A DNA stretch of 63,995 nt from an uncultured Anaeromyxobacter sp. GTDB lineage: Bacteria > Myxococcota > Myxococcia > Myxococcales > Anaeromyxobacteraceae. A program made the translations under genes and the position numbers. Location: positions 1 through 63,995 of the forward strand of contig CAIQRS010000062.1 in the NCBI GenBank assembly GCA_903874275.1. Reading direction: 5' to 3'. A model generated the notes under the pieces. It was not told where the DNA came from. It did not search any database and was given only the letters and a program-made list of their open reading frames with translations. How positions within the stretch are numbered: the first letter of the stretch is position 1; each line of letters opens with the position of its first letter. Below are positions 21,193 to 46,800 of the stretch, in pieces.

Positions 21193-21213
21193 GGAACGGA
21201 ATCGTCCCGTTCC
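21193..21213. promoter_or_regulatory. Second GGAAC-type inverted repeat in the divergent control region
   Basis: GGAACG-N9-CGTTCC, a perfect 6-bp-arm dyad upstream of the NtrC gene, with another GTTCC half-site at 21222-21226. Arm order is inverted compared with the dyad at 21146, so it may be a second or weaker site for the same protein. Confidence 0.4.
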
Positions 21214-21239
21214 GGCGCAGCGTTCCGTCCCCGGCCATC

Positions 21240-21255
21240 CGGCCCACATCGTGCA
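21240..21255 (+). promoter_or_regulatory. Candidate sigma-54 promoter for the NtrC-type regulator gene
   Basis: CGGCCCACATCGTGCA, GG-N10-GC, with four mismatches outside the GG and GC core. The predicted transcript start is near 21266, 3 nt before the ATG at 21269. If real, the activator would regulate its own gene through the adjacent dyads. Confidence 0.5.
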
Positions 21256-21268
21256 GCCAAACTGGAAC

Positions 21269-22773: not shown

Positions 22774-22777
<4 letters not shown>
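21269..22777 (+). CDS. NtrC-type sigma-54-dependent response regulator
   Basis: Transcription activator of 502 residues. Receiver domain 10-125 (VFVVDDD, phospho-Asp60 in [17 protein letters not shown]), AAA+ domain with Walker A GESGTGKE (177-184), sigma-54-contacting loop GSFTGA (224-229, usual form GAFTGA), Walker B LFLDE (246-250), and a Fis-type helix-turn-helix at 462-500 ([22 protein letters not shown]). The ATG at 21269 is preferred over a GTG at 21191. There is no Shine-Dalgarno sequence. It lies between two EPS operons, as EpsI/Nla24 does in M. xanthus. Its stop codon overlaps that of the convergent WbpP-like gene (22774-22777). Confidence 0.93.
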
Positions 22778-23822
<1,045 letters not shown>

Positions 23823-23826
<4 letters not shown>

Positions 23827-26724: not shown

Positions 26725-26785
26725 GTCGTCCCTGGATTGCACGGGGGGTGCCAGCCCCGGGGACGACACGCGCCTGGGAAGTGCT

Positions 26786-28066
26786 TCAGCGCGGGACAGC
26801 GGGCGTCGCGCCAGGGACGCCCTGCACCGCTTCGGAACGGTTGACGCGGAACAGGTGGAACAGCCTCGGCCCGGCCAGGTAGACCGACAGCACACAGGCC
26901 TCGGCGACGAAGGTGGCGATGGCCGCTCCGTGCGCGCCCATGGTGGGGATGAGGAGCAGGTTCACGCCGACGTTGGCCACGGCCGCGAGCCCCTGGCCGA
27001 AGGGCATCACCTTCTCGCCACCGCCGGCGACGAGCCTGCGGGAGAGGAAGGCGGTCTGGACCTGGAGGACGCTGGCGCCGAGCAGCCAGGCGAAGGCCGG
27101 GGCCGCGTCGCTCCAGCCCTTTCCGTACAGGAGCGTGATGAAGGCGCCTGCGAACGGGAGGATGAGCAGCGGACCGGCCGAGAGCCCCAGGGAGGCGAGG
27201 ATCCCGATCTTTCGGGCCCTCTTCCGCGCCGCCGGATCCGCCGAGACCAGGCCGGGGAAGAGCGCCAGGGCGAACGCGCCCGCACCGGCGGCGACTCCGT
27301 TGATGACGCGGTAGGCGCCGCCGTAGAGGCCGAGCTGCACCGGAGTGGAGAGCCCCTCGAGGAGGATCATGTCCACCCGGGCCGAGATCGATCCGAACAC
27401 CGACGAGACGCCGATCCAGCGCCCGCGGCGCCTGAAGTGCTCGCGCACCTCCTCATCCCTGCGGGGGCGCAAGGGGAAGAGGTTGCGTTGGACCACCAGC
27501 GCCCGTCCCGCGGTCAGGGTGATCGCGCCTGCGAGCTGGCCGGCCATGGCGATGATCAGGCTGCCGCGCCAGGCGCCCAGGGCCACGCCGGCGAGCATCA
27601 CCGCCCGGGAGACGACGATGACCGGGAGGTCGCGGGCCGAGGCGTCCCGACCCAGGATGGAGTAGTTGAAGGTGGTCGCCAGGCCGTTCACGATGAGCGC
27701 GAGCAAGGCCAGGGCCAGCGAACCCGCTCCCTGGGCGTCGAGCCGGAGCCCCAACCCGATGGCGAGCCCCACCACCACGGTGATGGCTGTCCCCTTGGAG
27801 AGCGCCGCCAGCGAACCCTCCAGCACCGCACCGGGGTCGTGCTTGCGCTCGGCGTAGAGCGTGATGGCCACCTCCCCGGCCCCGAACAGGAGCACGATGG
27901 CCAAGATCCCGGCCACGGCCAGCGCGAAGGTGTAATGGCCCATTGCCACCGGCCCGAGCGCCCGGGCGACCAGGACGCCGGCGGCGACCTGGCTGCCCAT
28001 GTCGATGACCTGCACCACCATGGTGGCTGCGGCGGGAGGGAGGCGGAGCTTCTTCACGGCAGGCAC
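26786..28066 (-). CDS. Wzx-type polysaccharide flippase
   Basis: MATE/MVF-like integral membrane protein of 426 residues with about 12-14 hydrophobic segments (for example VAGVLVARALGPVAMGHYTFALAVAGILAIVLLFGAGEVAI near the N-terminus). The N-terminal LGPVAMGHYTFAL is typical of polysaccharide biosynthesis flippases. It would flip lipid-linked repeat units across the inner membrane. The start overlaps the preceding glycosyltransferase gene by 13 bp; a second ATG 15 codons in is a less likely start. Confidence 0.88.
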   Translation of the reverse strand: MPAVKKLRLPPAAATMVVQVIDMGSQVAAGVLVARALGPVAMGHYTFALAVAGILAIVLLFGAGEVAITLYAERKHDPGAVLEGSLAALSKGTAITVVVGLAIGLGLRLDAQGAGSLALALLALIVNGLATTFNYSILGRDASARDLPVIVVSRAVMLAGVALGAWRGSLIIAMAGQLAGAITLTAGRALVVQRNLFPLRPRRDEEVREHFRRRGRWIGVSSVFGSISARVDMILLEGLSTPVQLGLYGGAYRVINGVAAGAGAFALALFPGLVSADPAARKRARKIGILASLGLSAGPLLILPFAGAFITLLYGKGWSDAAPAFAWLLGASVLQVQTAFLSRRLVAGGGEKVMPFGQGLAAVANVGVNLLLIPTMGAHGAAIATFVAEACVLSVYLAGPRLFHLFRVNRSEAVQGVPGATPAVPR

Positions 28067-29178
28067 TCCTCGAACATGCGCCGGTAGGCGGCGGCCTTGG
28101 CCGCGAAGGTGAACTCGGAAACCACCCGGCGGCGCGCCTCGGCGCCCATCTTCCTCGCGGTCACGGGGTCGGCGAGGAGGTCGAGGATGCGCCGGGCCAA
28201 CTCCTCCGGCCGGCGCGGCGGGACGAGGTGCCCTCCCCGGCCGTCCTCGAGGACCTCTCCGGTCCCTCCCACCGCGGTGGCGACGATGGGCACCGCGCAG
28301 GCTCCGGCCTCGAGCACGACGTTGGGCATTCCCTCGGTGTGGGAGGACTGCACGAACAGGTCGGCGCTGGCCATGAGCCTGTCGAGGTCGTCCCGGAAGC
28401 CCGCCAGGACGAAGGTGTCCTCGAGACCCGCCGCCCGGATGGCCGCAGCGATCTCCTCGCGGAGGGGGCCGTCGCCGACGAGGAGGAATCCCGCCCGGGG
28501 GGCGCGGTCGGCCACGAGCCGTGCGGCCCGGACCAGGTCGCCGAAGCCCTTCTCGGGGCTCAGGCGCCCGGCCGCAACCACCAGGTGCTCCGGCCGGACC
28601 GGGAAGAGCGCCTCCATCTCACGCCGGGTGGCCTGGTCCGGCGCCGGGAAACGGGCCGGGTCGATGGCGTTCCGCACAACCACCACGCGCTCGGGGCGCA
28701 CGCCGGCATCCTTCACCCGCTCGCCCTGCCGCTGCGAGACGGCCACCACGCGCCGGGCGCGGCGCATCACGAGCTTGTCGACGGCCTCGTTCAGCCGGAC
28801 CCGGAAGCTCGCCCCGGTCCAGCCGTGGGCGACCGCGATGAGCGGCACCTTGGTCCGCCGGGTGGCCAGGAGCCCCACCAGGTCGGGCTTGTAGCCGTGG
28901 GTGATGACCACGTCGGGCGCGAGCCTGCGGATCCAGCCCTCCACCTCGCGAATGGAACGGCGGAGCGGCCGCCCGGTCGAGGCGAGCAGGTGGGACTCGA
29001 TGCCCTCCCGGCGGAGCCGCGCATCGAAGTCGCCCCCCTCGGGGAAGCCGAGGAACACGGTCCTCTCGGCTCCGCGCTGCGCGCGGGCCAGGCCGATCAT
29101 CTGCCGCTCTGGCCCTCCCAGGAATGGCGAGGCGACGAGGTGCAGGACGGTGCGCGGCGTCGAGGTGGGGAGGTCCAT
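28054..29178 (-). CDS. Glycosyltransferase family 4
   Basis: 374-residue GT-B enzyme. The N-terminal acceptor loop is FLGGPERQMIGLA. VAAGRLSPEKGFGDLVRAARLV starts the donor domain, and SSHTEGMPNVVLEAGACAVPIVATAVGGTGEVLEDG holds the catalytic E-X7-E motif. It probably adds one sugar to the lipid-linked EPS repeat. The gene lies 3 bp after the acyltransferase gene and overlaps the flippase gene by 13 bp. Confidence 0.9.
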   Translation of the reverse strand: MDLPTSTPRTVLHLVASPFLGGPERQMIGLARAQRGAERTVFLGFPEGGDFDARLRREGIESHLLASTGRPLRRSIREVEGWIRRLAPDVVITHGYKPDLVGLLATRRTKVPLIAVAHGWTGASFRVRLNEAVDKLVMRRARRVVAVSQRQGERVKDAGVRPERVVVVRNAIDPARFPAPDQATRREMEALFPVRPEHLVVAAGRLSPEKGFGDLVRAARLVADRAPRAGFLLVGDGPLREEIAAAIRAAGLEDTFVLAGFRDDLDRLMASADLFVQSSHTEGMPNVVLEAGACAVPIVATAVGGTGEVLEDGRGGHLVPPRRPEELARRILDLLADPVTARKMGAEARRRVVSEFTFAAKAAAYRRMFEECLP

Positions 29179-29181
29179 GGC

Positions 29182-29910
29182 TCAGGCCACCGCGCCGACG
29201 GCGGAGACGGGGATGGGGCGGAGGTCGCGGACCGGCTTGGCCGGGGCCCCGGCGACCAGCGTGTACGGCGGCACGTCCCGGGTGACGATGGAGCCGGCCC
29301 CGACGACCGCTCCCTCGCCGATGGTGACGCCCGGCATGATCTTGCTGCCGTGGCCGATCCACACGTCGTCGCCGATGGTGACCGGGCGGATCTGGTCCGG
29401 CTCCACGCCCTGGACACGCCGCTTCATGGCGTCCATGGGGTGGCCGGGGTTGTCGGCGATGAAGACGTCGTTGGCGATGAGGACGTGGTTGCCGATGGTC
29501 ACGCGGCTCCCCACGCTGATGGAGACCTTGTGCCCCAGGTAGGTCTTGTTCCCGATCTCCAGCACGGGGCTCCGTCCCACGCTGGTGGCCACGAAGCTGG
29601 AGATGGCGTTCATGGTGCAGTCGTCGCCGATGCGGATGCGGATGTCCCCGTAGACGTAGGGTGCGCCGAGGTCGACGCGAAGGTTCCGCCCCACCTTCTC
29701 GCAGCGGGCCCGGAACATGGGCTGGTAGTAGAAGCTCCTGGTGAACCAGCGGACGCCGTTGCGGATGGCGTGGTGCGCGTACCACACCGGCAGGAAGATC
29801 ACCCGGGGCGCCGGCACCTCGAAGGTGCGCACGCGCTTGGCGAGCCGGTAGAGCCTGTCGAAGAACGGCGTCTCGCGCCGCTTCACCTTCCGGATCAGTC
29901 CCTGGATCAT
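29182..29910 (-). CDS. Left-handed beta-helix acyltransferase (maltose/serine acetyltransferase type)
   Basis: 242 residues. The C-terminal half is hexapeptide repeats ([38 protein letters not shown], then [52 protein letters not shown]), the trimeric acyl-CoA-dependent fold. NPGHPMD supplies the likely catalytic His. It probably O-acetylates a sugar of the EPS. The start at 29910 gives an ATGA overlap with the Wzy-like gene; the much longer open frame upstream is a shadow of that gene. Confidence 0.85.
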
Positions 29911-31247
29911 GTCTTTGCTCCTTGCATTTCGGGTGCCGCGGGCAGGCTGCGCTCCGTCGCGGCGACGAGCGCGAGCAGGATGAAGGTGAACCAGCTCCAG
30001 CACTGGGACAGGAAGAAGGCGGAGATGAAGAAGGCGGTCATGGTGGGGAGCAACGAGGATGCCGCCGCCCGTTCCATCGGGTCGTCGAGCTCGTTGCGCC
30101 GCCTCCGCACCCGCACCGCCGACCGGAAGGACAGGACGACCATCGTCATGAAGGGAACGAAGCCGACGATGCCCGTCTCGGCCACGGCCTTGACGAACGA
30201 GTTGTGGGCCTCGAGCTTCCCCCAGATGACGGCGTTCGTGACGTAGGTCGGGTAGTTGTCGGCGAACCGGTCGTACCCGACGCCCAGGATGGGGCGCGCC
30301 TTCACCATGCGCATCCCCGCCATCCAGGCGTCGAGCCGTCCCTGTGCCGACTCGTCGATCCCGTCCCCTTCCCCGCCGCCGCTGGAGCGGTCCGACATGC
30401 CGGAGACCGCCATGAGGCCGGCCATCCCGACGGCCAGGATCCCGATCTGCAGGGCGCGACTCTTCACCTTGTCCTGCAGCAGGATGAAGGCGGCGGCCCC
30501 CAGCCCCATGAACCCTCCTCGGGACTGGGTGGAGACGATGCCGGCGATCACCACGGCGAGGAGAAGCCCGTAGATCCACCGGCGGGATCCGTGGGTCATC
30601 ATGACCACGCTGGCGAGGAACGGCATGCCCATGAGCAGCACGAGGGCGAGGTCGTTGGGGTCGCCGAGGAGGCCCACGAACCCGGCCCGGCTGCCCTCGA
30701 TCTGGGCCTGCCCGGTGAGCTTGGCGTTCAGGGCGTAGGCGCCCAGGGCCGCGCCGACCGCGCCCAACGTGGTGAGCGTCGCGGCGGCCCGCGCCGGAGT
30801 GTTCACCAGGTTCCGGATCAGGACGTACAGGATGATGACCTTGACGAAGACGTCCTGGAACAGCGCGATGCTGGTGGCCGGGTCGGTCCCGACGAACGAG
30901 GACGCCAGCAGCGCCACGGTGAGCCAGGCGAAGTAGCGGTCGAGCTTGCTCCCCGGCCAGGTGGTGTCCTGGCGCACCATCTTCTCGACGGCCCAGAGGC
31001 CGAGCGCCGACAACGCGAAGATCTTGGCCGGCTGGAGCACCGCAAGCTCCGGCACGATGTCGGCCGGGCGCAAGAGCAGCGTGGCCATGAACCCGAGAAG
31101 GGCCCGGAAGGGGCTCGCGAAGACCCAGACCGCGAGCGCCGCCCCCGCCACGGCGCCAGCCGGGGCGAACGGGTGGAACGCGGCCAGCGAGCCGACGCCG
31201 GCCGCGCCGACGGCGGTCGCCGCGGCGATGGCCGGGGCGCGCCTCAC
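29907..31247 (-). CDS. O-antigen polymerase/ligase-like membrane protein (Wzy family)
   Basis: 446 residues, about 12 membrane segments, starting at a GTG that overlaps the Wzc-like stop. The large periplasmic loop contains [48 protein letters not shown] and [17 protein letters not shown], the hallmark of Wzy_C (PF04932) proteins. It would polymerise repeat units in the periplasm. An O-antigen ligase cannot be excluded, but position between the Wzc-like and Wzx-like genes favours a polymerase. Confidence 0.88.
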
Positions 31248-32689
31248 GGGCGGCTCCGGGATCCGAGTGTCCCGACCAGGTCGACGCCGGCGATGGTGGC
31301 CACCCGGTCGCGACGGACCACGCCGGAGAGGATCTCGGCGGCGGCGGCCAGCACGATGCCCAGCACGATGCCGCCCAGGAGGCCGCCGATGGCGACGATG
31401 GGCGTGGCCGGCTTGGTGGCGTGGAGGGGGCGGCTGGGGGGCTCCACGATCCAGACCTGCCCCTTCTCGTCGAAGAGGGCCAGTTCGCGCGTCACCAGCG
31501 CGTCCTCGTACTTCACGAGGAGCTCGCGGTAGACCTTCGACTTGGCGTCGACGTCGCGCTGCATGCCGGCCACGTTCATCTCGTTTCGCGCGAAGTCGCG
31601 AACCTGGCCGTCGGACTGGACGAGGCGCCGCTTGACGGCCTGCACCCTGCCGCGCGCCCCCTCGATGTCGCCGAGCACCGCCCTGTAGGCGAGGATGTCG
31701 TTGGACAGCAGGTCTCCCCGGCCGTCGGCGCCGCCGTTCGTGCGCTGGTCCCCTCCGCGGGAGCTGGCCAGCGCCTCGAGGTGCAACAGGTCGACGTCCT
31801 TCCCGGTGGGGACGGCTGCTTCGTGCTCGTCCTCCAGGCGCCGGATGAGGGCCCGCTGGTTCTCGAGCACGGGGTGCTCATCGGTGTAGACGCCGCGCAG
31901 GTCCCTCAGGCGGGCCTTGGCCTCGAGGATCTTGACCTCCACCAGCCTCGAGGTCGGGGTCTGGGAACGCAGGCGCGCCTCCAGCAGGTCCTTCTTCCGG
32001 ATGGCGGCCTCGAGGCCAGTCTCGGCCTCGGCCAGGGCCCGGCGGAGCTGCAGGGTCATGTCCAGGTTCTGGTGGAACACCTCGGGCAGCTCGGTGGCGT
32101 TCTCCCCCTTGTACTTGGCGAGGAGACGCTCGTCGCCCTGGAGCTCGCGTCGCAGCCGGTCGATCTGGACCCGGAGGAACTCGGCCGACTCGCTGATCGA
32201 CTCCTTCTGGGGACGGAGCATCTCGGCGATGAAGGTCGAGACGAGGGCCTGGAGGGTCTCGTAGGTGTCGTCGGGGCTTCCGCGCGTCACGGTGAGCTGC
32301 GCCATCGTGTTGGCCACCCCGAACACCTCGACCTCCCGGCGGAACTGGTTGATCTTGGCGTCAACGGCCTCCGGGCCGTCGGCCGCGGTGACCATCCCGC
32401 GCTGCCGCAGCACCTTCTCCAGGATGGCGTTGCCCCGGATGAGCTCGGAGAGCACCTTGATGCGGTTCTTGACGTTCCAGTCCACCATCTTGTCGTTCAG
32501 GATGGGGTTGAGCGCCTTGCTCTCCTGGATGAGCACGCGCGCGGACGCCTTGTAGCGGTTGGGCATGGCCCGGTGAACGGCCAGGGCCGCGATGGGCGTG
32601 ACCACCACGGCGACGACCACGAGCAGCCAGCGGCGCCGGACCGCGGTGGCGATGAGGGTCCAGGTCCCGGCCTTGGTGGTGGGCTTCAC
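31244..32689 (-). CDS. Wzz/Wzc-type polysaccharide co-polymerase (chain-length regulator)
   Basis: 481 residues from a GTG at 32689 that overlaps the stop of the ATPase gene. Transmembrane helix 1 is about 20-40, then the Wzz domain ([17 protein letters not shown]), a long periplasmic coiled coil to about 400, the pre-TM2 motif [16 protein letters not shown] and helix 2 (435-460). The cytoplasmic kinase domain found in Wzc is absent; it is encoded separately by the preceding gene, as in Gram-positive CpsC/CpsD pairs. It sets chain length and connects polymerisation to export. Confidence 0.88.
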
Positions 32690-33330
32690 GCAACGCTCCC
32701 GTGACCGGTCCGGCGGAAGAGGGCGACGCCCGGCTTTCCGCGCCCGCTCGCCTCCGCCCGCGTGGCTTCGGGGGCGGCCTTGCCGCCCGGGAACATCTGG
32801 CGGACCGACGAGGCCCTGCGCTTGAGCGCTCCGAGGAGGGACGGGAGGCCGCGGTCGTCGCGGTCGTTCCAGACCACCCCGACGGGAGGAATCTCCAGCG
32901 CGTCGAGGCGGGCGCGCAGCTGCGCCACCTCGTCCTCGGTGGTGCGCCCGGCGAGCAGGACGATGAGGGCCCCGTCGAGGGCCTTCATCCACTCGTCGTT
33001 GAGCTGGATGCCGCCGTCGCCGTCGAGCAACGCCGCCCCGTCGATGACCACCCGCCGCGGCGCCTGGAAGTCCCCGGGGGAGGCCCGGGCTGCGCCGTTC
33101 ACGTCGAGGAAGGACCAGGCCTCGGGCTCGGCGGTCGCGAGCACCGACTCGAGCGTGCTGAAGAGGTGGCTCTTGCCGTCTCCATTGCGGGCCGAGACGA
33201 CCAGGATGTAACGGCAGGACGTCGCTCCGAGGGCGGCGGCGACCCCCTCGGCGAGGAGGCGGTGGGCCAGGACCTCCTTCTTCGGAGCTCCGGCGTCGGC
33301 ATTCTGGTCGTGTCGGGCAATGGAGCGCAT
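32686..33330 (-). CDS. BY-kinase-like ATPase (CpsD-type), degenerate
   Basis: 214 residues. A P-loop-like ARNGDGKS (47-54), a Walker A'-position strand WSFLDVNGAA and a Walker B strand RRVVIDGAAL are recognisable in CpsD/Wzc order. The usual DxDxR motif is altered and there is no C-terminal tyrosine cluster, so tyrosine autokinase activity is doubtful. It may act only as a cytoplasmic partner of the co-polymerase. The start at 33330 has no Shine-Dalgarno sequence and sits 6 nt after a predicted sigma-54 start. First gene of the ten-gene EPS operon. Confidence 0.75.
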   Translation of the reverse strand: MRSIARHDQNADAGAPKKEVLAHRLLAEGVAAALGATSCRYILVVSARNGDGKSHLFSTLESVLATAEPEAWSFLDVNGAARASPGDFQAPRRVVIDGAALLDGDGGIQLNDEWMKALDGALIVLLAGRTTEDEVAQLRARLDALEIPPVGVVWNDRDDRGLPSLLGALKRRASSVRQMFPGGKAAPEATRAEASGRGKPGVALFRRTGHGSVA

Positions 33331-33346
33331 GTCTGCAGGGACCAAC

Positions 33347-33362
33347 TGCAACTCACGATCCA
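33347..33362 (-). promoter_or_regulatory. Candidate sigma-54 promoter for the minus-strand EPS operon
   Basis: Minus strand TGGATCGTGAGTTGCA: GG-N10-GC with only two mismatches to TGGCACG-N4-TTGCA, the best match in the window. Predicted start near 33336, 6 nt before the ATG of the BY-kinase-like gene. Confidence 0.65.
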
Positions 33363-33367
33363 GCCGC

Positions 33368-33388
33368 GGTGTTCGTCGATGGAACACC
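33368..33388. promoter_or_regulatory. Perfect dyad, likely enhancer site shared by both EPS operons
   Basis: GGTGTTC-N7-GAACACC, 7-bp perfect arms with a 7-bp spacer. The same core and spacing occur at 21146-21168 next to the NtrC-type gene. It is about 110 bp from the plus-strand sigma-54 promoter and close to the minus-strand one. Further GGAAC half-sites occur at 33442 (within GGTTCGGAACAC) and 33463. Confidence 0.55.
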
Positions 33389-33498
33389 CGCCCGTCCCTG
33401 CCGGGGCGGCTCCCGATCGAACGGCGTCGGCTCATCCCGGTTCGGAACACACGCCCGGGAATGGAACGCCTTTCGACCCTGCCGGGCGCCGAAGTCGT

Positions 33499-33514
33499 CG
33501 GCACGCCACTTGCC
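33499..33514 (+). promoter_or_regulatory. Candidate sigma-54 promoter for the plus-strand EPS operon
   Basis: CGGCACGCCACTTGCC: GG-N10-GC, mismatching the consensus only at the first and last base. Predicted start near 33525, 2 nt before the ATG at 33527. A good Shine-Dalgarno sequence (AAGGGAGAG, 33515-33523) lies upstream of that start and would be lost, so either another start is used or the promoter match is fortuitous. Confidence 0.5.
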
Positions 33515-33526
33515 AAGGGAGAGTGC

Positions 33527-34636
33527 ATGGCACGACGGCTTCGAGTGGCGCAGCTCATCCAGTACTTCGGCATCGGCGGCATCGAGCGGATGGTCGAAGG
33601 GCTCGTCCCGGCCTTCGACGCCCGCGGCGTGGACACCGTGGTCGCGGCCTACCGCGGCGACGGCCCGGTGCGCGAGGCGCTCGAGGCCAGGGGCGCCCCC
33701 GCCGTGCTCCTCCCCGGCCGGTCCGGGCTCGACCCCCTCCTCCCCTTCCGCCTGGCCCGTTGGATCCGCACATCCGGCGCGGATGTGCTCCACACGCACC
33801 ACCTCGGCCCCTTCATCTACGGCGCGGCCGCGGCCCGCCAGGCCGGCGTGCCCCACGTCCACACCGAGCACTCCCACGAGATCTACGACGCCCCCCGCAG
33901 GCTGGCGCTGGGCAAGCGCATGGACGGACTGGCCACCGTGGTGGCCGTATCGGAGGAGATCGCCGCCTGGAGGGAGTCGGCCATGGGGCAGCGCTGCATC
34001 GTGATCCCGAACGGGGTCCCGGTTCCCCCCACGCCCACGCCCGAGGTCCGCGCCCAGGCCCGGCGGCTGCTCGGGGTGGCGGAAGGGGACGTCGTGGTCG
34101 GCTGCGTGGCCCGGCTCGCCCCCGAGAAGGACCACGCGACCCTCGTCCGGGCCATCCACACCGCCCTCCCGGCCGCGCCGGCCCTGCGCCTCGTCCTCGT
34201 CGGCGACGGACCCGAGCGGGCCGCGCTCGCGTCGCTTGCCTCTGAACTCGGAGTGACCGATCGGGTCCTCTTCCTGGGCGCCCGGTCCGACGTGGCGGCG
34301 CTCCTGCCGGGCCTCGACCTCTTCACGCTCTCGAGCCGCCGCGAGGGGCTTCCCCTCTCCCTGCTGGAGGCCCTGGCCTCCGGGGTCCCGGCGGTGACCA
34401 CCGCGGTGGGCGAGATGCCGCGCGTCCTCGCCGGTGGCGCCGGGCGCACCGTTCCCTCCGGGAGCGTCGCCGACCTGGCCGCGGTCCTGGCCGGGGCGGC
34501 CCTGGACCCGGACTGGCGGCGCGTGGCCGGGAACACCGGTCGTGAACTGGTCCGCACCCGCTACTCGATGGATGCCATGGCCGACGCCTACGTCCACTCC
34601 TACAGGGCCGCGCTGCACCGCCGGAGGGCGGCATGA
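33527..34636 (+). CDS. Glycosyltransferase family 4
   Basis: 369-residue GT-B enzyme. YFGIGGIERMVEGLVPAF is the acceptor loop, HTEHSHEIYD lies in the N-terminal domain, VARLAPEKDHATLVRAIH opens the donor domain and SSRREGLPLSLLEALASGVPAVTTAVGEMP carries the E-X7-E motif. The start was set at 33527 from the AAGGGAGAG ribosome site and the beginning of homology. First gene of the plus-strand EPS operon; its stop overlaps the next start (ATGA at 34633-34636). Confidence 0.9.
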   Translation: MARRLRVAQLIQYFGIGGIERMVEGLVPAFDARGVDTVVAAYRGDGPVREALEARGAPAVLLPGRSGLDPLLPFRLARWIRTSGADVLHTHHLGPFIYGAAAARQAGVPHVHTEHSHEIYDAPRRLALGKRMDGLATVVAVSEEIAAWRESAMGQRCIVIPNGVPVPPTPTPEVRAQARRLLGVAEGDVVVGCVARLAPEKDHATLVRAIHTALPAAPALRLVLVGDGPERAALASLASELGVTDRVLFLGARSDVAALLPGLDLFTLSSRREGLPLSLLEALASGVPAVTTAVGEMPRVLAGGAGRTVPSGSVADLAAVLAGAALDPDWRRVAGNTGRELVRTRYSMDAMADAYVHSYRAALHRRRAA

Positions 34637-35760
34637 CCTGCCTCGTGTTCGGCGACGACTGGGGACGCCACCCCTCGACCACCCAGCACCTGGCCCGGCA
34701 GCTCGGCGAGCAGTCGCGGGTGGTCTGGATCGACTCGATCGCCATGCGCTCCCCGAAGCTCACCGCCGCCGACGCCCGGCGGGTGTGGGGAAAGCTGCGG
34801 GGCGGGCGCCCGGCCGTCGGGTCGGCGCCGGATCCCGCCTGGCTTGTCCGTCCCCGCCCGAGGGTCCTCCCCTGGCACCTCTCCCCCGCCGTGGCCTCCC
34901 TGAACCGCGCGGCCATCACCCGCTCCGTGACCGAGGCACTCCGGGGCGAGCTCCCGGTCGTTCTGGCGGCGAACCCGGTCGCCGCCTTCTACCTGGAGGG
35001 CATCCCGCGCGAGGCGCTCGTCTACCTCCGGCTCGACGACTACGCCGAGCTCCCCGGGGTGGACCCGGACCTGGCCCGGGCCGCCGAGGCCCGCATGCTC
35101 CGGATGGCCGACGTGGTGGCCGCGACGGCGCGGCGCCTGCTTCCTCCCGGCGTGCCGGGGCTCTACCTCCCCCAGGGAGTGGACACGGCGCACTTCGGCC
35201 AGGTGTCGCTCGTCCCGCCACCGGGCAAGGTGCTGGGGTTCTTCGGCCTTCTCGCCCCCTGGATCGACCTCGCGCTCGTCGCGGCGGTGGCCCGGGCCGC
35301 CCCGGACTGGACGCTCGAGTTCGTGGGGCGCTCCGACGTGGACACCGCGGCGCTCCGGGCCCTCCCCAACGTCCGGATCCTCCCCGCCGTCCCCTACTCC
35401 GAGCTCCCCTCGGTCATGCGCCACTGGCGCGCCGCCTGGGCTCCGTTCGCCATGAACGAGCTCACCGCCGCGGTGAACCCGCTCAAGATCCGCGAGTACC
35501 TGGCGGCCGGTCTCCCCTCCTTCTGCACCCCGCTCCCGGAGGTCCGGGAGATCGACGGCGTCCGCCTGGGGCGGACCGCCGACGACGTGACCACCTGGCT
35601 CCGGGAGGAGGCAGCCGTCGATGCCCCGGCACGGCGGGCCGCCCGCCGCCGCGGCGTCGCCGGAGACTCCTGGACCGCCCGCGCCGCCGAGCTCGAACGA
35701 TGCATCCGCGCCATTCCCGGGCACGCCCTTCCCGCCACCGCACTGGAGAACCGACGATGA
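34633..35760 (+). CDS. Glycosyltransferase (GT1/GT4-like GT-B fold)
   Basis: 375 residues. LVFGDDWGRHPSTTQHLARQL starts the N-terminal domain. LRLDDYAELPGVD, LPQGVDTAHFG, GFFGLLAPWIDLALV and VNPLKIREYLAAGLPSFCTPLPEV are motifs seen in EPS transferases of the TuaH/GumK-like kind. The C-terminal EX7E is replaced by a KIREYLAAG motif. It overlaps both neighbours by 4 bp. Acceptor and donor are unknown. Confidence 0.8.
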   Translation: MTCLVFGDDWGRHPSTTQHLARQLGEQSRVVWIDSIAMRSPKLTAADARRVWGKLRGGRPAVGSAPDPAWLVRPRPRVLPWHLSPAVASLNRAAITRSVTEALRGELPVVLAANPVAAFYLEGIPREALVYLRLDDYAELPGVDPDLARAAEARMLRMADVVAATARRLLPPGVPGLYLPQGVDTAHFGQVSLVPPPGKVLGFFGLLAPWIDLALVAAVARAAPDWTLEFVGRSDVDTAALRALPNVRILPAVPYSELPSVMRHWRAAWAPFAMNELTAAVNPLKIREYLAAGLPSFCTPLPEVREIDGVRLGRTADDVTTWLREEAAVDAPARRAARRRGVAGDSWTARAAELERCIRAIPGHALPATALENRR

Positions 35761-37550
35761 GCGAGCTTTCCCTCTGGATCCTCTTCGCCGCGCTCTGCGG
35801 GCTGGCCCTCTTCCCGTACGCGGGCTACCCGCTCGCGGTCCTGCTCTTCCCGCGGCGCAGCCCCAGATCTGGCCCGCCCGTGGAGGGCGACATCAGCGTG
35901 GTCATCCCGGCCCGAAACGAGGCGGCCACCCTGGCCGCGAAGCTGGACGCCACCCTGGCCCTCGAGCCCCGCGCCCGCATCCGCGAGGTGCTGGTCGGCT
36001 CCGATGGCTCGACCGACGCCACCGCATCGATCGTACTGGCGGCCGGCTCCCGGGACCCGCGCGTTCGCCTCGTGGACCGGGGCGCCCGCCGCGGCAAGGC
36101 CGCCGTGATCACCGACCTGGCCCGGCAGGCCGGGGGCGAGTTCGTCCTCTTCACCGACGCCGGCGCCACCGTGGCTCCCGATGTGATCCCGGCGCTGCTC
36201 GAGGCCATGCGCGACCCCGAGGTCGCCGTCGCCGTTCCCCGCTACGAGACCCGCGGGCAGGAGGGGGGCGAGGGGGCGTACTGGCGCATGATGACCGCGC
36301 TCAAGAGGGCGGAGTCCGACCGGGGGCTGGTGGTCGGGGCCCACGGGGCCTGCTACCTGGCGCGGCGCTCCGCCGTCCCGCCGCTCCCGAGCGGAACCGT
36401 GAACGACGACCTCCTTCTGCCGGCGATGATCCGCGCCGATGGCGGGCGGGTGGTCTACGTGCACGAGGTCGCCTCCTCCGAGGGCGCCACGTCCGGACCG
36501 GACGCCGTCTGGGGGCGCCTGGCGCGGATCTCGCGCGGCAACTGGCAGCTCTTCTCCCGCCACACCGAGCTCCTCTCCCCGCTCCGCCCCCGGCTCGCCT
36601 TCCCGCTCGTCGCCACCAAGCTCCTTCGAATCCTCGGCCCCTGGCTCCTCGTCGCCGCGCTCGTCACCGCAGTGGTGGGGGCGACGCGGTACCCGTCCTT
36701 CCAGGCCATCCTCGCCACCGGGCTCGTGGTCCTGGCGGCCGCTGGCCTGGCCCTCTGGCGGCAGCTCGACGGCCGCGTCGTGCGCGGCCCGCTCGGCCTG
36801 CTCGGCTACGGCCTCCTGGGTCAGGCGGCCACCGCCGCCGGGGCCTGGCAGGCGCTCCGGGGAGGCCACGGCGCGGGCTGGGAGTCCGTAGACGGCGAGG
36901 CGGAAGGCGACGTCCCGCCCCCGCTGCCGCTCAGCGTCCGGGGCGCCAAGAGGACCTTCGACGTCCTGGGCTCGGCCCTGCTCCTGCTCGTGACCTGGCC
37001 CTTCATGCTCGCCTCCGCGCTCGCGGTGAAGCTCACCTCGCCCGGCCCGGCCATCTTCAGGCAGGAGCGGGTCCGGCACGACGCGCGCGGCCGCCCCATC
37101 TCCTTCCAGATGTACAAGTTCCGCAGCATGTGGGTGGACGCCGAGGCCCGCAGCGGCCCGGTCTGGGCCACCGTGGCCGACCCGCGCATCACTCCGGTGG
37201 GGCGCTTCCTGCGCAAGGCCCGGCTCGACGAGCTGCCCCAGCTCTGGAACGTCTTCCGCGGCGACATGACGCTGGTCGGTCCCCGCCCCGAGCGCCCCTC
37301 CTTCGTGAAGCAGCTCTCCGACATGATCCCCGGCTACACGGACCGGGTGGCCCGCTGCAAGCCGGGCGTCACCGGCTGGGCCCAGATTCACTGCGAGTAT
37401 GATACCTCGATCGACAGCGTCCGCACCAAGGTGCTCTACGACCTGGCCTACGTGGCCCACCTCTACGACCTGCGCAGCTACCTTGGCATGGAGGTCAACG
37501 TGGCCCTGCGAACCGTGATGGTGATGGTGAAGGGCAAGGGCGCGCACTGA
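35757..37550 (+). CDS. Fusion: GT2 glycosyltransferase + priming phosphoglycosyl transferase
   Basis: 597 residues in two modules. Residues 1-370: a membrane helix (5-30), a GT2 domain (ISVVIPARNEAATL, VGSDGSTDAT, FTDAGA, NDDLLLP and RGNWQLF) and two to three membrane segments (280-365). Residues 393-597: a bacterial sugar transferase (PF02397) with the re-entrant helix, YKFRSM, catalytic pair Asp491-Glu492 (ARLDELPQ) and LVGPRPERP. The second module would place the first sugar phosphate on undecaprenyl phosphate, and the first would add the next sugar. Start chosen by the ATGA overlap at 35757. Confidence 0.9.
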   Translation: MSELSLWILFAALCGLALFPYAGYPLAVLLFPRRSPRSGPPVEGDISVVIPARNEAATLAAKLDATLALEPRARIREVLVGSDGSTDATASIVLAAGSRDPRVRLVDRGARRGKAAVITDLARQAGGEFVLFTDAGATVAPDVIPALLEAMRDPEVAVAVPRYETRGQEGGEGAYWRMMTALKRAESDRGLVVGAHGACYLARRSAVPPLPSGTVNDDLLLPAMIRADGGRVVYVHEVASSEGATSGPDAVWGRLARISRGNWQLFSRHTELLSPLRPRLAFPLVATKLLRILGPWLLVAALVTAVVGATRYPSFQAILATGLVVLAAAGLALWRQLDGRVVRGPLGLLGYGLLGQAATAAGAWQALRGGHGAGWESVDGEAEGDVPPPLPLSVRGAKRTFDVLGSALLLLVTWPFMLASALAVKLTSPGPAIFRQERVRHDARGRPISFQMYKFRSMWVDAEARSGPVWATVADPRITPVGRFLRKARLDELPQLWNVFRGDMTLVGPRPERPSFVKQLSDMIPGYTDRVARCKPGVTGWAQIHCEYDTSIDSVRTKVLYDLAYVAHLYDLRSYLGMEVNVALRTVMVMVKGKGAH

Positions 37551-37552
37551 CC

Positions 37553-39358
37553 ATGTGGGCCGTGGTCCTCGCCGCGCTGCTGCTCGCCCAGGGCCCGGCC
37601 GCTCCGGCCGCCCCGCCCCCTCCGCCCGATCCCCTCGCCGCGGAGTTCGAGCCGCGCATCGACACCAATCCGGCTCACTACCCCTCGTCCGTCTGGGTGA
37701 CCGGGAGCATGGCCAAGGTCCGGCGCACCGACCCGCCCGGGCCGGTCCACTGGGCGTTCCTCTCGGCGGCCCGCAACGAGGTCGAGAGCTTCCAGGTCCA
37801 CGTTCACGCCCCGACCAGCCTCGCGGACGTGACCGTGGAGCCGTCCGACCTGGTCGATGCCCGGACCGGCGCGCGCATCCACGCCGCCACGCACGTCTCG
37901 GTCTCGCGGGAGCTCTACCAGCGCGTCCCCCCGGGACAGCGAAGCGACGCCAACGGCCTGGCCGGCGACATCCCGGACGCGCTCGTCCCGGCCCGGGACC
38001 GGTACTGGGGCGAGGTCCGCAACGCCTTCCCCGCCGAGGTCCGGGCCGCCGAGAACCTCTCGGCATGGATCGACGTGCACGTCCCCCTGGGCATCCCCTC
38101 CGGCTGGTACGTCGGCGACGTCGCGGTGCGGTCCGGCGACAGGCTGCTCGCCACCATCCCGGTGCGGCTCAAGGTCTGGAACGTGGACCTGCCATCGACC
38201 GCGTCGCTCCACTCCCACTTCGCCATGAGCTGGAACGGCGCCTGCGTGCAGGAGTTCGGCAGCTACGAGCGCTGCGGGGCCGCCACGCCGTCGGGCAAGC
38301 CGGACGCCGGCGTGGAGCAGTTCCACGTCCTCTACTCCACCTTCGGCCTCGACCGGCGCGTCTCCATCGCCAACGTGGTCTACGGCCCGCACCGGGGGAA
38401 CGACTGGTCCCGGTTCGACGCCCTCTACGGGCCGCTCCTCGAGGGGGGAGCGGAGACCCGCTTCCCGGGCGCGCGGCTCACCCGCATCACCTACGCGGGG
38501 GGGGGCGACGACACCCAGGTCATGTCCCGATGGGTGAACCACTTCCGGAAGCGCGGCTGGCTGGACAGGCTGGTCTTCTACCGCTGCGACGAGCCCGGGA
38601 ACGGCACCTGCACCTTCGCCGACGCCCGCGCCGAGGGCGATCGGGTCCACTCGGTCTCCCCCGACTTCCGCACCCTCCTCACCACCGACATCGAGCACCT
38701 CACCACCCACGGCCTGCTCGACTCGGTGGACGTCGCCGTCCCGGTCCTCGACCGCATGCAGCCCCACGGCAAGGAGAGCCGCCGCCCCCTCTACGACGCC
38801 TTCCTCTCCCGGTCGCCGAGGAAGCAGCTCTTCTGGTACCAGTCCTGCGACCAGCACGAGAGCTGCGCGAACGGGCGCATGGGCCCGGCCCAGGCCACCT
38901 GGCCGAGCTACATGGTGGACGCCTCCCCCATGCGGAACAGGGTCTTCCAGTGGATGGCCTTCCTGGAGCGCGTCCAGGGGGAGCTCTACTACGCGGTGGA
39001 TTACTGCTTCAACCGGGAGTGCGGCCCTGCCGGGTCGGCGTCGCGCGACCCGTTCCGCTCCGTCTACGCCTTCGGTGGCCACGGGGACGGCACCCTCCTC
39101 TACCCCGGCAACACCCGCACCATCGGGGGCAAGCACCACGTCCCGCTCTCCTCCATCCGGCTCGAGCTCATCCGCGAGGGCATGGAGGACTACGAGCTCC
39201 TCCACCTGCTCGAGGCCCAGGGAGAGGGCGACTTCGCCCGGGCCAAGGCTGCCTCCTTCATCCGCCGCGCCGACGAGTTCGCCTCCGACCCGGCCCGGCT
39301 CCTCACGGTCCGGGAGGCGCTGGGCGACCGACTCCACGCCCGCTCGCTCCGGCGCTGA
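37553..39358 (+). CDS. Exported DUF4091/GH123-like glycoside hydrolase
   Basis: 601 residues, 2 bp after the priming-transferase gene. It has a signal peptide (MWAVVLAALLLAQGPAAPA) and a Pro-rich linker. The N-terminal beta-sandwich (45-210) is followed by a barrel with an adjacent Asp346-Glu347 pair in FYRCDEPGNG, as in the substrate-assisted GH123 beta-N-acetylgalactosaminidases, and the DUF4091 end motif SIRLELIREGMEDYELLHLL. It may trim or degrade the polymer in the periplasm. A GalNAc-active enzyme would suit the WbpP-like epimerase of this locus. Catalysis is inferred. Confidence 0.8.
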   Translation: MWAVVLAALLLAQGPAAPAAPPPPPDPLAAEFEPRIDTNPAHYPSSVWVTGSMAKVRRTDPPGPVHWAFLSAARNEVESFQVHVHAPTSLADVTVEPSDLVDARTGARIHAATHVSVSRELYQRVPPGQRSDANGLAGDIPDALVPARDRYWGEVRNAFPAEVRAAENLSAWIDVHVPLGIPSGWYVGDVAVRSGDRLLATIPVRLKVWNVDLPSTASLHSHFAMSWNGACVQEFGSYERCGAATPSGKPDAGVEQFHVLYSTFGLDRRVSIANVVYGPHRGNDWSRFDALYGPLLEGGAETRFPGARLTRITYAGGGDDTQVMSRWVNHFRKRGWLDRLVFYRCDEPGNGTCTFADARAEGDRVHSVSPDFRTLLTTDIEHLTTHGLLDSVDVAVPVLDRMQPHGKESRRPLYDAFLSRSPRKQLFWYQSCDQHESCANGRMGPAQATWPSYMVDASPMRNRVFQWMAFLERVQGELYYAVDYCFNRECGPAGSASRDPFRSVYAFGGHGDGTLLYPGNTRTIGGKHHVPLSSIRLELIREGMEDYELLHLLEAQGEGDFARAKAASFIRRADEFASDPARLLTVREALGDRLHARSLRR

Positions 39359-39552
39359 TCGCCCTGGTGGGTGAGCCGATCCGGTCCGTTTCGACCCTCA
39401 TGGATCCGCCACCCGTGGGTGGATGTGGGATGAGCGTGGCTCGGCCTAAAGAAATTCTCAGGAAGTACCGGTCGCTCCGGTGACGGTCTCCTCCGCGTGC
39501 CAGGAACCGGCGATGGCCCGGCCCGTGCTCTTCCTTTGCGCCGAGGGCAAAC
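39359..39552. promoter_or_regulatory. Intergenic region with candidate sigma-54 promoter for the receiver gene
   Basis: A short perfect dyad CCACCC-GT-GGGTGG lies near 39410 with no U-run. At 39514-39529, TGGCCCGGCCCGTGCT matches sigma-54 spacing (GG-N10-GC, two mismatches). The predicted start near 39540 leaves a 13-nt leader that includes a GAGG ribosome site before the ATG at 39553. Confidence 0.45.
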
Positions 39553-40029
39553 ATGACCGCCACCGCCTCCCCCGTCGCCGCCACGCAGGAATGCCAGACC
39601 GCCGCCGCACATCCCCGGACCGAGGCGGCGGAGTCCTGGCCCACGGTGTTCGTGGTGGACGACGACGAGTGCCTCCGCTCCCTCGTGGGCGACTGGGTGG
39701 ATGACGCCGGCTTCCGCGCGGTCCGCCTCGACGGCGGGGAGGCCTGCCTGGCCCTCCTGGCCCTGGAGCGACCCGTCGCCGTCATCCTGGACCTGCACAT
39801 GTCGGGGCTCTCCGGTGTGGAGACCCTCGACTTCATCCGGATCGTGGACCTCGACGTCCCCGTGATCGCGATGACCGGCGAGTGCGATCCCGCCATCGCC
39901 CTCGACATGGTGGACCGCGGCGCCGACGAGTTCCTGATCAAGCCCGTCAGCCGGACCCGCCTGGTCCGATCGCTCCTCGCGAACGTGGTCCCGGGCCGGC
40001 TCCCGAGCCGGGTCCCGGAACCCGCCTGA
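39553..40029 (+). CDS. Stand-alone receiver-domain response regulator
   Basis: 158 residues: a 30-residue Ala/Thr-rich lead, then one receiver domain (VFVVDDDECLRSLVGDWVDDAGFRAV, phospho-Asp in VILDLHMSGLSG, MTGE, FLIKPVS). The domain is strikingly close to the receiver of the NtrC-type protein at 21269 (shared VFVVDDD, GxWVxxAGFR, GGEACLA/SGEACLA), so the two are probably duplicates. There is no output domain. It could compete for, or pass on, phosphate in the EPS control circuit. Confidence 0.85.
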   Translation: MTATASPVAATQECQTAAAHPRTEAAESWPTVFVVDDDECLRSLVGDWVDDAGFRAVRLDGGEACLALLALERPVAVILDLHMSGLSGVETLDFIRIVDLDVPVIAMTGECDPAIALDMVDRGADEFLIKPVSRTRLVRSLLANVVPGRLPSRVPEPA

Positions 40030-40085
40030 ATCGGGCGCTCCGCCCCAAATCGGAGCAAGACTTGTGTCCCCCGGCCCCCGTACGC

Positions 40086-40101
40086 TGGCGCACGACGTGC
40101 A
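40086..40101 (+). promoter_or_regulatory. Candidate sigma-54 promoter for the solute-binding protein/kinase pair
   Basis: TGGCGCACGACGTGCA, GG-N10-GC with three mismatches. Predicted start near 40112, giving an 18-nt leader with ribosome site AAAGGGA before the ATG at 40130. Unlike the other sites in this locus, the leader geometry is ordinary. Confidence 0.5.
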
Positions 40102-40129
40102 TCTCCCTTCCGGCCGAAAGGGAATTCAC

Positions 40130-40930
40130 ATGCCACCCATCCGCATCCTCCTCGTCGCCCTGCTCCTCGCGGGCGGATCCGCCACTGCCAGGGACCCCGC
40201 GCCAACCGGTCGCCTCGCGCGGATCCAGGCCGCGGGAGTCCTCAAGGTCTGCATCTGGCCCGACTACCACTCGATCACGTTCCGCAATCCAAAGTCGGGT
40301 GAGTTGTCCGGGATCGACGCCACGCTCTCGGCGGCCTTCGCGAAGGACCTGGGCGTGAAGACAGCCTACGTGGACTCGAGCTTCCCGACCTTCATCGGCG
40401 ACCTCCTGGGCGACCGCTGCGACATCGCCATGTTCGGCGTCGGCATGCTCCCCGAGCGGGCCGCCAAGGTGCGCTTCTCCCAGCCCTACCTCCGATCGGA
40501 CATCTACGCGGTCACCACGAAGACCCATCCCGCCATCAAGTCCTGGGACGACATCGACAGGCCCGGACGGGTGGTGGCCGTGCAGGCCGGGACCTTCATG
40601 GAGCCGGTCATGCGCGCCTGGCTCAAGGAGGCCACGATGCTCTCGGTGCGCCCTCCCGACACCCGCGAACGGGAGGTCCAGTCCGGACGGGCCGACGTCT
40701 TCATGACCGACTACCCGTACAGCCGGCGCGTCCTCGACAACGCCGACTGGGCCCGCGTCATGCCCCCGGAGAAGCCCATCTTCCCGCTCTCCTACGCCTA
40801 CGCGGTGGCCCCCGGAGACGACGCCTGGCTTGCCCGGGTGGACCAGTTCGTCGCCGACGTGAAGCGGGACGGCCGCCTGCTGGCGGCTGCCCGGGCCAGC
40901 AAGCTCGAGCCCATCGTCCTGACCCAGTGA
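40130..40930 (+). CDS. Periplasmic family 3 solute-binding protein
   Basis: 266 residues. The start at 40130 gives a signal peptide (MPPIRILLVALLLAGGSATARD). LARIQAAGVLKVCIWPDYHSITFRNPKSGELSGIDATLSAAFAKDLG is the classic SBP_bac_3 opening; RCDIAMFGVGMLPERAAKVRFSQPYLRSDIYAV and GRVVAVQAGTFMEPVMRAWL continue it. No ABC transporter gene is nearby. Its stop overlaps the start of a membrane hybrid kinase (GTGA), so it more likely acts as a ligand sensor for the kinase than in uptake. Amino acids are the usual ligands. Confidence 0.88.
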   Translation: MPPIRILLVALLLAGGSATARDPAPTGRLARIQAAGVLKVCIWPDYHSITFRNPKSGELSGIDATLSAAFAKDLGVKTAYVDSSFPTFIGDLLGDRCDIAMFGVGMLPERAAKVRFSQPYLRSDIYAVTTKTHPAIKSWDDIDRPGRVVAVQAGTFMEPVMRAWLKEATMLSVRPPDTREREVQSGRADVFMTDYPYSRRVLDNADWARVMPPEKPIFPLSYAYAVAPGDDAWLARVDQFVADVKRDGRLLAAARASKLEPIVLTQ

Positions 40931-43882: not shown

Positions 43883-46800
43883 TCACGCCTTGGTGCCGCC
43901 CGATGACGCAAGGGCCTGCGGCGACATCTGCGTTCCCCTCGAGGCATCGATGGCGAGGTTTGGCGGCGAGCTGGCGAGGTTCGACCTCAGAACCACCCCG
44001 GTCTGGCCGCCGACCGAGATCTCGACCCAGTTGGGGTCGGCGGGATCGGTTCGAAGGAAGACGACCGGCTGGCCCGGCGCCAGAAAGGGGCGCCCGGGCA
44101 ACGTCACCTGGTCGGAGCCAGGCGCGGCCCTGCTCAGAAGCTTGGTGTCCTTGCTCTTGATGTAGAGCGTGTCGCCGCTCTTCACGTTTCGCTTGGCCGC
44201 ACACTCCTCGGCAAGGCCTGTCGGGTCGATGAAGTTCACCGGGTCGTTGCCCGCGTACGCGTAGAGGTTGGTGTCCCCTGCGTCGAAGCCGAGCGGGTCC
44301 TTAGAGGTCCATCGGCCGGTGGCCGGATCGTAGTCGCGGGCACCGAAGTGGAGGAGTCCGGTGTCCCGGTCGAGCAACCCTCCGGCGAACCCGAATGGCT
44401 GGAAGCCGGGGTTCGAGTCGAGGACGACCTGCCCGAAGGCGTCGTAGTCGAGCCGCTGCACGACCAATCCGGTGGCAGCGTCCACGGCGAGCCGCGGGCT
44501 TCCCAGGTGGTCGGCGATGATGCGGAAGGTGCCCGTCTGGGAGACGAGGTACTCGGGCGCGTGGCCCCGCGGCCCGTAGACGAACACGCCCTTCACGGCA
44601 CCCGCCCCGTCGAGCCACGCCACGGGACGGAGCTGTCCGTCGTAGAGGAACGCCTCGGTGAGCGCGCCGTTCACCCTCTTCACGACGCGTCGCCCCAGGC
44701 CATCCACGAGGTACTGGAGTTGCCGGCCGTCCGGCAGCACGACCGTCCTGAGCCGGCCATGCGCGTCGTGCTGGAACGAGGTCGTCCCTCCCGGTCCGGC
44801 ACGGGAGAGCAGCGCGCCGGTTGCGCTCCATCCGTAGGAGGTCGATCCCGATGCAACCAGCCGGTCCTGGGCGTCGAAGGTCGCGCTCTCGGTGACGCCA
44901 CCGATCGTGCGAGAGATCCGGTTCCCCTGGCCGTCGTATCCGTAGTCGATGACCGCCCCGTCCACCGAGGCCGACGAGAGACGTCCAGCCGCGTCGTAGG
45001 CGTAGGCGAGGGCCCGCGAGAGGCCCTGCACCGTCTCCGCGACCGTGGTGAGGCGCCCGAGCGTGTCGCGCGTGAGCGTCGCCGCGTAGAGCGCGGTGCC
45101 GCCAGCCGACGCCGAGGCCCCGGAGATCTCGCCGTAGGAACTGTACGCGCCCGTCGTCGTCACCGTCCCGAGCGCGGTCGCGACCGGGTGCCCGGTTGCG
45201 GCGTTCCTGGTCACCGCAAGGTCGCCCGCGCCTATGACCAGGCCATCCGGGTCATAGGTGTACGCCGCCGAGACGCCGCCGACGGTGATGGATGCCGGCC
45301 TGTGCTGGGCGTCGAATATGGTGGCGACGGTTCCGACCACCGCGCCGGACCACGATTGGCTCGCGACCAGGGAACCGTCGTAGCCAGGAGTGGAGGTCAC
45401 CCCGTCCGCTGCAGCGGAGGAAAGCCTGCCAACCGCGTCCCAGGCGTAGAGGGTCGCGCCGTCGGCGCTGGTCATCGAGGTGAGCCGGCCATCGGTGCCC
45501 ACCAGTCCGCCAGTGGGACTCGCGTATCCGAGCACCACGGCGTCACCGTCCGGCAGGTCGATCCGCGTGAGGTTCCGGTCGGCATCCCACGCGTAGGCGG
45601 TCGAGACCGTGCCGGCGTCGCCCACGGGAGGCGGCGTCACGAGGGCGAGCAGGTCGCTCGCCGTCCGGCCGAAGGCGTGTGCACCCCGCCCTGGCGGCGT
45701 CAGCGCCGTGACGTTCCCGGCGGCGTCGTGGGCAATCCCCACGGAACGGCCACCGGGGAGCGCCTCCCCCGTCACCCGTCCCGCGAGGTCCCGGGTGAAG
45801 CCGTAGGCACGTGAGACCGGGTCGACGATCCCGGCCAGCAGGCCGTCCGTGCCGTAGGTCAAGGACGTGGGCCTCGCACCCTCCGCGTACTCCACGACCC
45901 GCCCCTGAGCGTCGTAGGTGAAGGCCATCGCCGCGGAGCCAGCCTGAGCGCTGTTCACGACGCGCCCCTTCTCATCGAGCTGGACCGTGGAGACGCGCCC
46001 CGCCGGAGAGGTCATCGTCCAGGCGCGGGCTGCCGAGTCGTAGGTCTGGTTCCAGGTCTGGCCAGCCTCGGTCACGGTCTCGACGAGCGCCGTGGCGCTC
46101 AGGGGATCGTCGGGATTCGCCAGGGTGGCAGTCCGGGTCGCGGTGACGGTCCTGGCGTTCCCGCCCGGCGTCGTGATGACGGTCTTCGCCGAGACAGGAG
46201 CCGCCATGCCCCATCGCGGATCCGGGCCCCAGGTCACGGACGTGGTGGTTCCGTCCGACGCCGTCGCCAGCGTGGAACCATCGGGCGCGGTGGTCCATGC
46301 GCGTGTCGCGCCGGAGGTCTCCACGACCGTGCGGCCAACGCTCCCATCCGCGAGCCGGACGACCGTGTACCGGTGCGATCGACCGAGAGCCGACGTGGTG
46401 GTGACGGTGTGTCCGCCGGTCACGGCGGCACGTGCCAGCGTCGTCACCGCGCCGTCGGGACCGCGGTCCTCTACAAGACGCCCCGTCGTGTCGTAGGCGA
46501 AGGAATGGGAACGGCCCAGCGGATCGACGAGCCCCTGGAGGAGGCCGCTGGTGGCGCTGGTCATCGTCCAGGCCTCCCCTGCCGGATTCTCCAGGCGGGA
46601 GAGCCAGCCTGCTGCGTCCACGGAGAGCCGGGTGCGCTGGCCGGAGGGCGCGACGATGGCGGTCGGCGCGCTCCCGCTCCGCTCGACGGTCGTGACGTTG
46701 CCGGAGACGTCGGTCACGGTGGCGAGGAAGCCGGCGGCGTCGTAGGCGAAGGAGCGGAGAACGGCACCCGTCGTGGCGTCCCGGGTGCGGAGGTGGCGCC

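Follow-up and report, generated by a model that had tools for sequence, protein, structure and literature searches.

Background

In the Vibrionaceae, the syp clusters encode glycosyltransferases (SypH, SypI, SypJ, SypN, SypP and SypQ), a Wzz protein (SypO) and a priming enzyme (SypR), with sypP, sypQ and sypR forming an operon, and the same source describes syp homologues outside this family in few genomes (PMC5801674). Mutants of sypR and sypQ were reported to be disrupted in their polysaccharide (PMC8546588, PMC11841056), and SypQ was still termed a "putative glycosyltransferase" in 2015 (PMC4517449). In the EpsL/EpsD system of B. subtilis the second step is carried out by a separate GT4 enzyme, EpsD, according to PMC10653937, which also lists the hallmarks of small mono-PGTs (phosphoglycosyl transferases) as a basic motif, a re-entrant helix, a DE dyad and a PRP motif. 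Proteins in which a mono-PGT core is fused at its N or C terminus to a functional domain have been designated Bi-PGTs (PMC10942596, which cites the 2021 network study named below). For PcManGT (6YV7), an archaeal protein with a GT2 domain and a membrane part, the title of its own paper assigns a role in N-glycan synthesis, and PMC8993221 states that the function could not be confirmed.

Domain composition of the fusion gene

The window (the whole stretch of Anaeromyxobacter DNA analysed here, 63,995 nucleotides in length) contains at positions 35757-37550 of the plus strand a single reading frame of 597 amino acids, starting with ATG at 35757, ending with TGA at 37548-37550 and free of stops in translation. 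The preliminary description had placed a GT2 domain, membrane helices and a complete PF02397 module with an Asp-Glu pair in this one chain, which was borne out to the nucleotide by Pfam, hydropathy and residue conservation. A membrane helix at residues ~3-30 (35757-35846; by hydropathy, and 3-30 in AF2 models) is followed by the GT2 catalytic domain at residues ~45-275 (35889-36581), which matched PF00535 with 82 bits at residues 47-207 and PF13641 at 46-256, and in which D83, D134, D218 and R254/R257 were invariant in an alignment of seven rows (A2). The C-terminal membrane part of the GT2 half, at residues ~278-367 (36588-36857), consists of two strong and one weak hydrophobic helices (278-309, 313-337 and 345-367 in AF2 models), and a linker at residues 372-392 (36870-36932) leads into the PGT module (36948-37529). 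PF02397 matched this module with 184.5 bits at residues 398-591, spanning profile positions 1-178 of 179, and the mono-PGT core is complete, with the basic motif K398-R399, a proline-containing re-entrant helix (392-427), the D491-E492 dyad and P509-R510-P511. Residues K398, R399, D402, R438, D491, E492 and R510-P511 were invariant or at least 90% conserved (alignment A1), and the catalytic residues of both halves were retained in the relatives; their loss there had been named in the preliminary description as evidence against it.

Residues 393-595 could be aligned with the catalytic module of the large PGTs WbaP and WcaJ (8T53, 9S7S and others), from which the fusion differs in lacking PF13727: no match to this family was found by Pfam anywhere in the chain. 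The fusion thus does not carry the PF13727 domain and four-helix bundle that precede PF02397 in large PGTs, whereas a PGT on contig C109 of the same genome has PF13727, and its matches to TIGR03025/3013/3023/3022 were all below the respective cut-offs. In appearance the PGT half is a small PGT. It matches PglC (8E37, 8G1N) over residues 397-595 and in the fold predicted by AF2; PglC chains are about 200 residues long and have no fused glycosyltransferase. In the search for an internal start that could release the PGT by itself, residues 300-440 were found to hold one in-frame GTG common to the three orthologues described below, at codon 424 inside the re-entrant helix. In-frame GTG codons are otherwise scattered along the fusion genes.

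The surrounding polysaccharide locus

The fusion lies third in a row of four plus-strand genes. A GT4 glycosyltransferase in a SypP-like position (33530-34636; PF00534/PF13439) overlaps by 4 nucleotides a TuaH-like GT-B glycosyltransferase (34633-35760; PF13692, with NF047676 below its cut-off), the end of which in turn overlaps the start of the fusion by 4 nucleotides, and a GH123-like protein (37553-39358; PF13320, 43.6 bits), kept beside the fusion in loci L071 and L072, starts 2 nucleotides past the fusion stop. Because of the 4-base overlap upstream and the 2-base distance downstream, the four genes at 33530-39358 appear to form a single transcription unit; a scan of 33000-40200 for promoters and terminators found none.

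Upstream, the minus strand carries a SypO-like Wzz/GNVR chain-length determinant (31244-32695; PF02706 and PF13807, TIGR03007 below cut-off), a protein of the Wzy/O-antigen ligase family (29907-31247; PF04932), a hexapeptide acyltransferase (29182-29910; PF00132), a GT4 glycosyltransferase (28054-29178; PF00534), a candidate Wzx flippase (26786-28066; PF01943), a UDP-GlcNAc 2-epimerase (WecB; 25567-26895, TIGR00236 above cut-off), a nucleotide-sugar dehydrogenase (23823-25220; TIGR03026 above cut-off), a TviC-like nucleotide-sugar epimerase (22774-23844; PF01370, with NF011728 under its cut-off at 358 bits) and a further GT4 glycosyltransferase (16844-17968; PF00534). A Wza-type polysaccharide export protein with an SLBB domain, which may have a SypC-like role, is encoded on the plus strand at 10063-10809 (PF02563, PF10531). 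These genes make up a polysaccharide locus of the Wzx/Wzy type, probably related to the syp/eps clusters. No further PF02397 gene is present in the window, which makes the fusion the obvious candidate for priming synthesis at this locus; the two other PF02397 genes of the genome are on other contigs, one being large (PF13727 and PF02397) and one small. The host is a lake bacterium.

The arrangement resembles that of sypQ and sypR of Vibrio and of their relatives on the Plesiomonas plasmid NZ_CP062197, in both of which a GT2 is followed by a priming PGT within a P-Q-R unit beside Wzz; the two domains are separate proteins there and one protein in the window. The window also differs in having the TuaH-like gene between the GT4 gene and the fusion, and Wzz on the opposite strand. 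We read the fusion as the Q and R proteins of a syp/eps P-Q-R unit joined into one, a reading that rests on gene order, domain content and the Plesiomonas cluster as a bridge.

Authenticity and distribution of the fusion

A full-length, in-frame fusion was also present in two other metagenome-assembled genomes labelled Anaeromyxobacter, at 89% (locus L034, genome G001) and 83% (L035, G003) protein identity to that of the window, so that the orthologues come from three species-level genomes in all. The nucleotide differences between them fell mostly on third codon positions (45/27/195 and 76/49/188), and dN/dS, at 0.12-0.25 for the chain as a whole, was only 0.05-0.09 in the 21 residues of the linker (372-392), which is thus under strong purifying selection. 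In a fourth genome of the genus (G002, 74% complete) the fusion was absent, and the adjoining TuaH-like and Wzz genes were absent too; this genome is therefore uninformative on the fusion. The preliminary description had named a frameshift artefact as what would overturn it. That an assembly or frameshift error joined two genes is a negligible prospect: the kindred Plesiomonas genes are indeed adjacent yet separate, but no support for an error was found, and the identical in-frame architecture in three genomes, without stops and with a constrained linker, rules it out.

Among the matches listed from 195 Myxococcota genomes, 188 of which had some match, a full-length fusion was found in three, all of the same genus. 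Other members of the order were matched by GT2 (31-39% identity) and by PGT, mostly large (39-57%), apart from each other among the matches listed, and where large-PGT matches had long open frames (loci L001-L056) the GT2 half was absent from every frame checked. A tblastn search with the whole fusion matched 1143 of 72,556 plasmid records; no fusion was found among the best 40 of these, three of which had both halves, namely two from Plesiomonas, where they are two annotated genes, and one from Indioceanicola, where they lie in different frames. Indioceanicola was not accepted as another unfused counterpart, since the PGT there has ordinary spacing (see below) and groups with other PGTs. None of 55 PGT loci in viral contigs had a GT2 half in the same frame, and a scan of 84,980 GTDB species returned two fusions, both from Anaeromyxobacter, by exact peptide patterns, an insensitive method; outside the Myxococcota the coverage consisted of the plasmids, the viral contigs and these patterns, and does not imply rarity there.

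Bifunctional PGT fusions are already known, and the GT2-PGT fusion of Anaeromyxobacter is a further example, with a PF02397 core and another functional domain in one chain in three genomes. Glycosyl transferases are reportedly among the common fusion partners of mono-PGTs in the network study of O'Toole, Imperiali and Allen (2021). What sets the fusion apart within the Bi-PGT class is the pairing of a membrane GT2, probably of SypQ type, with a small PGT, probably of SypR type, in an Anaeromyxobacter host; literature searches found no description of this exact pairing in the publications covered, among which the 2021 Bi-PGT survey was not included.

Unfused relatives and origin of the fusion

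The two Plesiomonas plasmids took the top rank in the whole-fusion search of the plasmid records. On NZ_CP062197, genes for GNVR, GT4, GT2 and sugar transferase proteins are consecutive, with STAS, SLBB and SpoIIE genes after them, and the GT2 and small-PGT genes adjoin with a one-base overlap. Eight genes of this cluster matched genes of the window, seven of them with at least 130 bits (PGT 187, GNVR 185, GT4 166, TuaH-like 158, Wzy 158, acyltransferase 152 and GT2 130 bits; SLBB 34 bits). When window proteins were used singly against the 72,556 plasmid records, Plesiomonas stood first among the rows listed for Wzz (147 against 66 bits for the next), for the PGT half (187 against 174) and for the GT2 half (120 against 105), and Wzz had matches in just seven of these records. 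For the GT4 protein encoded at 33530 the Plesiomonas row was first, yet two other records were higher in bits, and for the TuaH-like protein Nitratidesulfovibrio scored slightly above Plesiomonas. In a reverse search of 189 Myxococcota genomes with the Plesiomonas PGT, the three best matches were the three fusions.

Two spacing markers were followed in 104 PGT domains, those without the respective anchor pattern being left out. A distance of exactly 23 between GPRP and KPG was found in four of 74 domains, the three fusions and Plesiomonas, and a distance of 14 between QxR and KFR in five of 54, these same four and an Oscillospiraceae PGT (L042). Plesiomonas also ranked first in rare shared residues for both halves, by small margins (10 against 7, and 16 against 12). 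In pruned trees each half of the fusion grouped with Plesiomonas at 93/90, with long branches meeting there. The first GT2 tree had given 98/95 for this grouping together with a long-branch warning, and 93/90 was obtained after removal of two long rows; the first PGT tree (71 rows) did not resolve the neighbourhood of the fusion. The AU test did not reject other positions for either half (p 0.06-0.31), and by raw score some Myxococcales GT2 proteins matched the GT2 half with up to 168 bits, against 131 bits for Plesiomonas.

According to the preliminary description, the GT2 part stands in place of the N-terminal half usual in WcaJ/WbaP proteins. The absence of PF13727 agrees with this; the history itself, in which a large Myxococcales PGT would have exchanged its four-helix/PF13727 half for a GT2 part, is probably not what happened, and we hold it to be improbable. 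In its favour, PGTs of the order, mostly large, share up to 57% identity with that half of the fusion, a grouping of the fusion PGT with all Myxococcales large PGTs was not rejected (p 0.305), and six loci of the same family carry such PGTs. Those six loci, which had been picked for containing a PGT and five of which also have a TuaH-like gene, nevertheless lacked a matching GT2, and their Wzz matches were weak, whereas the Wzz adjoining the fusion is far closer to that of the Plesiomonas cluster, in which a small PGT stands beside the GT2, and the spacing markers are common only or nearly only to the fusions and the Plesiomonas small PGT.

Proposed function and alternatives

The fusion is thus probably composed of a SypQ-type GT2 (residues ~1-370) and a SypR-type small monotopic PGT (~393-597), acting in two steps within a syp/eps-related Wzx/Wzy locus. 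Through its DE dyad the PGT half would load undecaprenyl phosphate with a sugar-1-phosphate taken from a UDP-sugar, and the GT2 site, kept on that same side of the membrane, would most likely add the second sugar to the resulting Und-PP-sugar; GT4 enzymes could then extend the chain, and the Wzx, Wzy, Wzz and Wza proteins would flip, polymerise and export the product. The addition of the first two sugars by one protein, as proposed in the preliminary description, is plausible given the fusion and the P-Q-R unit, for which a second-step GT2 is the simplest reading, although the corresponding step in B. subtilis belongs to a separate GT4 enzyme. The accompanying idea that the fusion fixes the order of the sugars was not upheld, because the PGT, as maker of the Und-PP-sugar acceptor, would have to act first whatever the order of the domains. 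A stronger version, in which the GT2 site receives the covalent product straight from the PGT and SypQ-type GT2 proteins act right after SypR across syp/eps biofilm loci, is offered tentatively, and we regard it as possible but doubtful.

Membrane-bound GT2 proteins occupy many pathway positions, and the GT2 half of the same fusion might instead act at a later step or add a branch, in which case joining the halves would fix just 1:1 amounts and a common membrane location. Four other glycosyltransferase genes were found in the locus, and the use of a GT4 for the second step in B. subtilis (PMC10653937) fits such an arrangement as well; adjacent steps agree better with the fusion of the GT2 to a priming enzyme and with the conservation of the P-Q-R neighbourhood, and we consider the later position rather unlikely. 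Far less probable still is that the GT2 half works as a processive synthase of the PNAG type for which the PGT half provides the primer. This idea finds some encouragement in the link between V. parahaemolyticus sypQ and poly-N-acetylglucosamine (Ye 2014, cited in PMC4517449) and in the match to the PgaC/IcaA model TIGR03937, but this match reached 47.3 bits against a cut-off of 422.3, and the locus contains a full Wzx/Wzy/Wzz set. The position of the QxxRW motif reads RLARI in the fusion, which also speaks against such a synthase.

Should the two-step reading hold, one expressible protein would allow a joint assay of the two opening membrane steps in the synthesis of a syp/eps-type polysaccharide, and the glycosyltransferase that acts next after priming in Vibrio biofilm loci could be predicted. 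The significance is that of a Rosetta-stone style fusion and is modest; no new kind of system is involved.

Membrane topology and structure models

Hydrophobic windows were found at residues 4-22, 289-307, 315-333 and 406-424, the last being the re-entrant helix of the PGT, with a weak one at 346-364. The chemistry requires that both active sites face the cytoplasm, and they would do so if just the two strong helices between the domains cross the membrane. The weak helix, if membrane-crossing, would place the PGT on the wrong face; its mean hydropathy was 1.03 in the window fusion and 0.29 in Plesiomonas. The AF2 model of the whole chain was poor (pLDDT 64.6, pTM 0.40) and too weak to judge the placement of the domains, and the GT2 half modelled alone gave a pLDDT of 69.4 and a pTM of 0.63. 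The best match of the GT2-half model, its membrane part included, was PcManGT (TM 0.68/0.74), which shares the GT2 domain and membrane part with the fusion and differs in being archaeal and in having no PGT.

Genomic context of the fusion gene

Immediately downstream of the fusion gene in the window lies a gene for a GH123-like glycoside hydrolase (37553-39358, + strand; PF13320, 43.6 bits), and a GH123-like gene was also found next to the fusion in both of the other genomes that carry it (2/2). In six loci from the same family, Anaeromyxobacteraceae (L065-L070), the polysaccharide locus differed from that of the window, with its own phosphoglycosyl transferase, Wzy and GT4; a TuaH-like gene was present in five of the six, at 36-40% identity to the TuaH-like gene of the window.

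The polysaccharide locus of the window also encloses a hybrid sensor kinase (17965-20361, - strand) together with a PEP-CTERM response regulator/NtrC-type sigma-54 activator (21191-22777, + strand); the two recall the SypF/SypG pair described in PMC5801674. A syp/eps-like polysaccharide cluster (L156), including STAS and SpoIIE regulator genes, is plasmid-borne in Plesiomonas shigelloides (NZ_CP062197.1, 184000-216000), a host outside the Vibrionaceae.

Adjoining the polysaccharide locus, a 1067-aa protein (13603-16806, - strand) matched DUF4842 and, weakly, DUF11. A 2168-aa frame (43883-50389, - strand), read by eye only, appeared to encode an RHS/YD-repeat protein bearing PASTA-like repeats at its N-terminal end.
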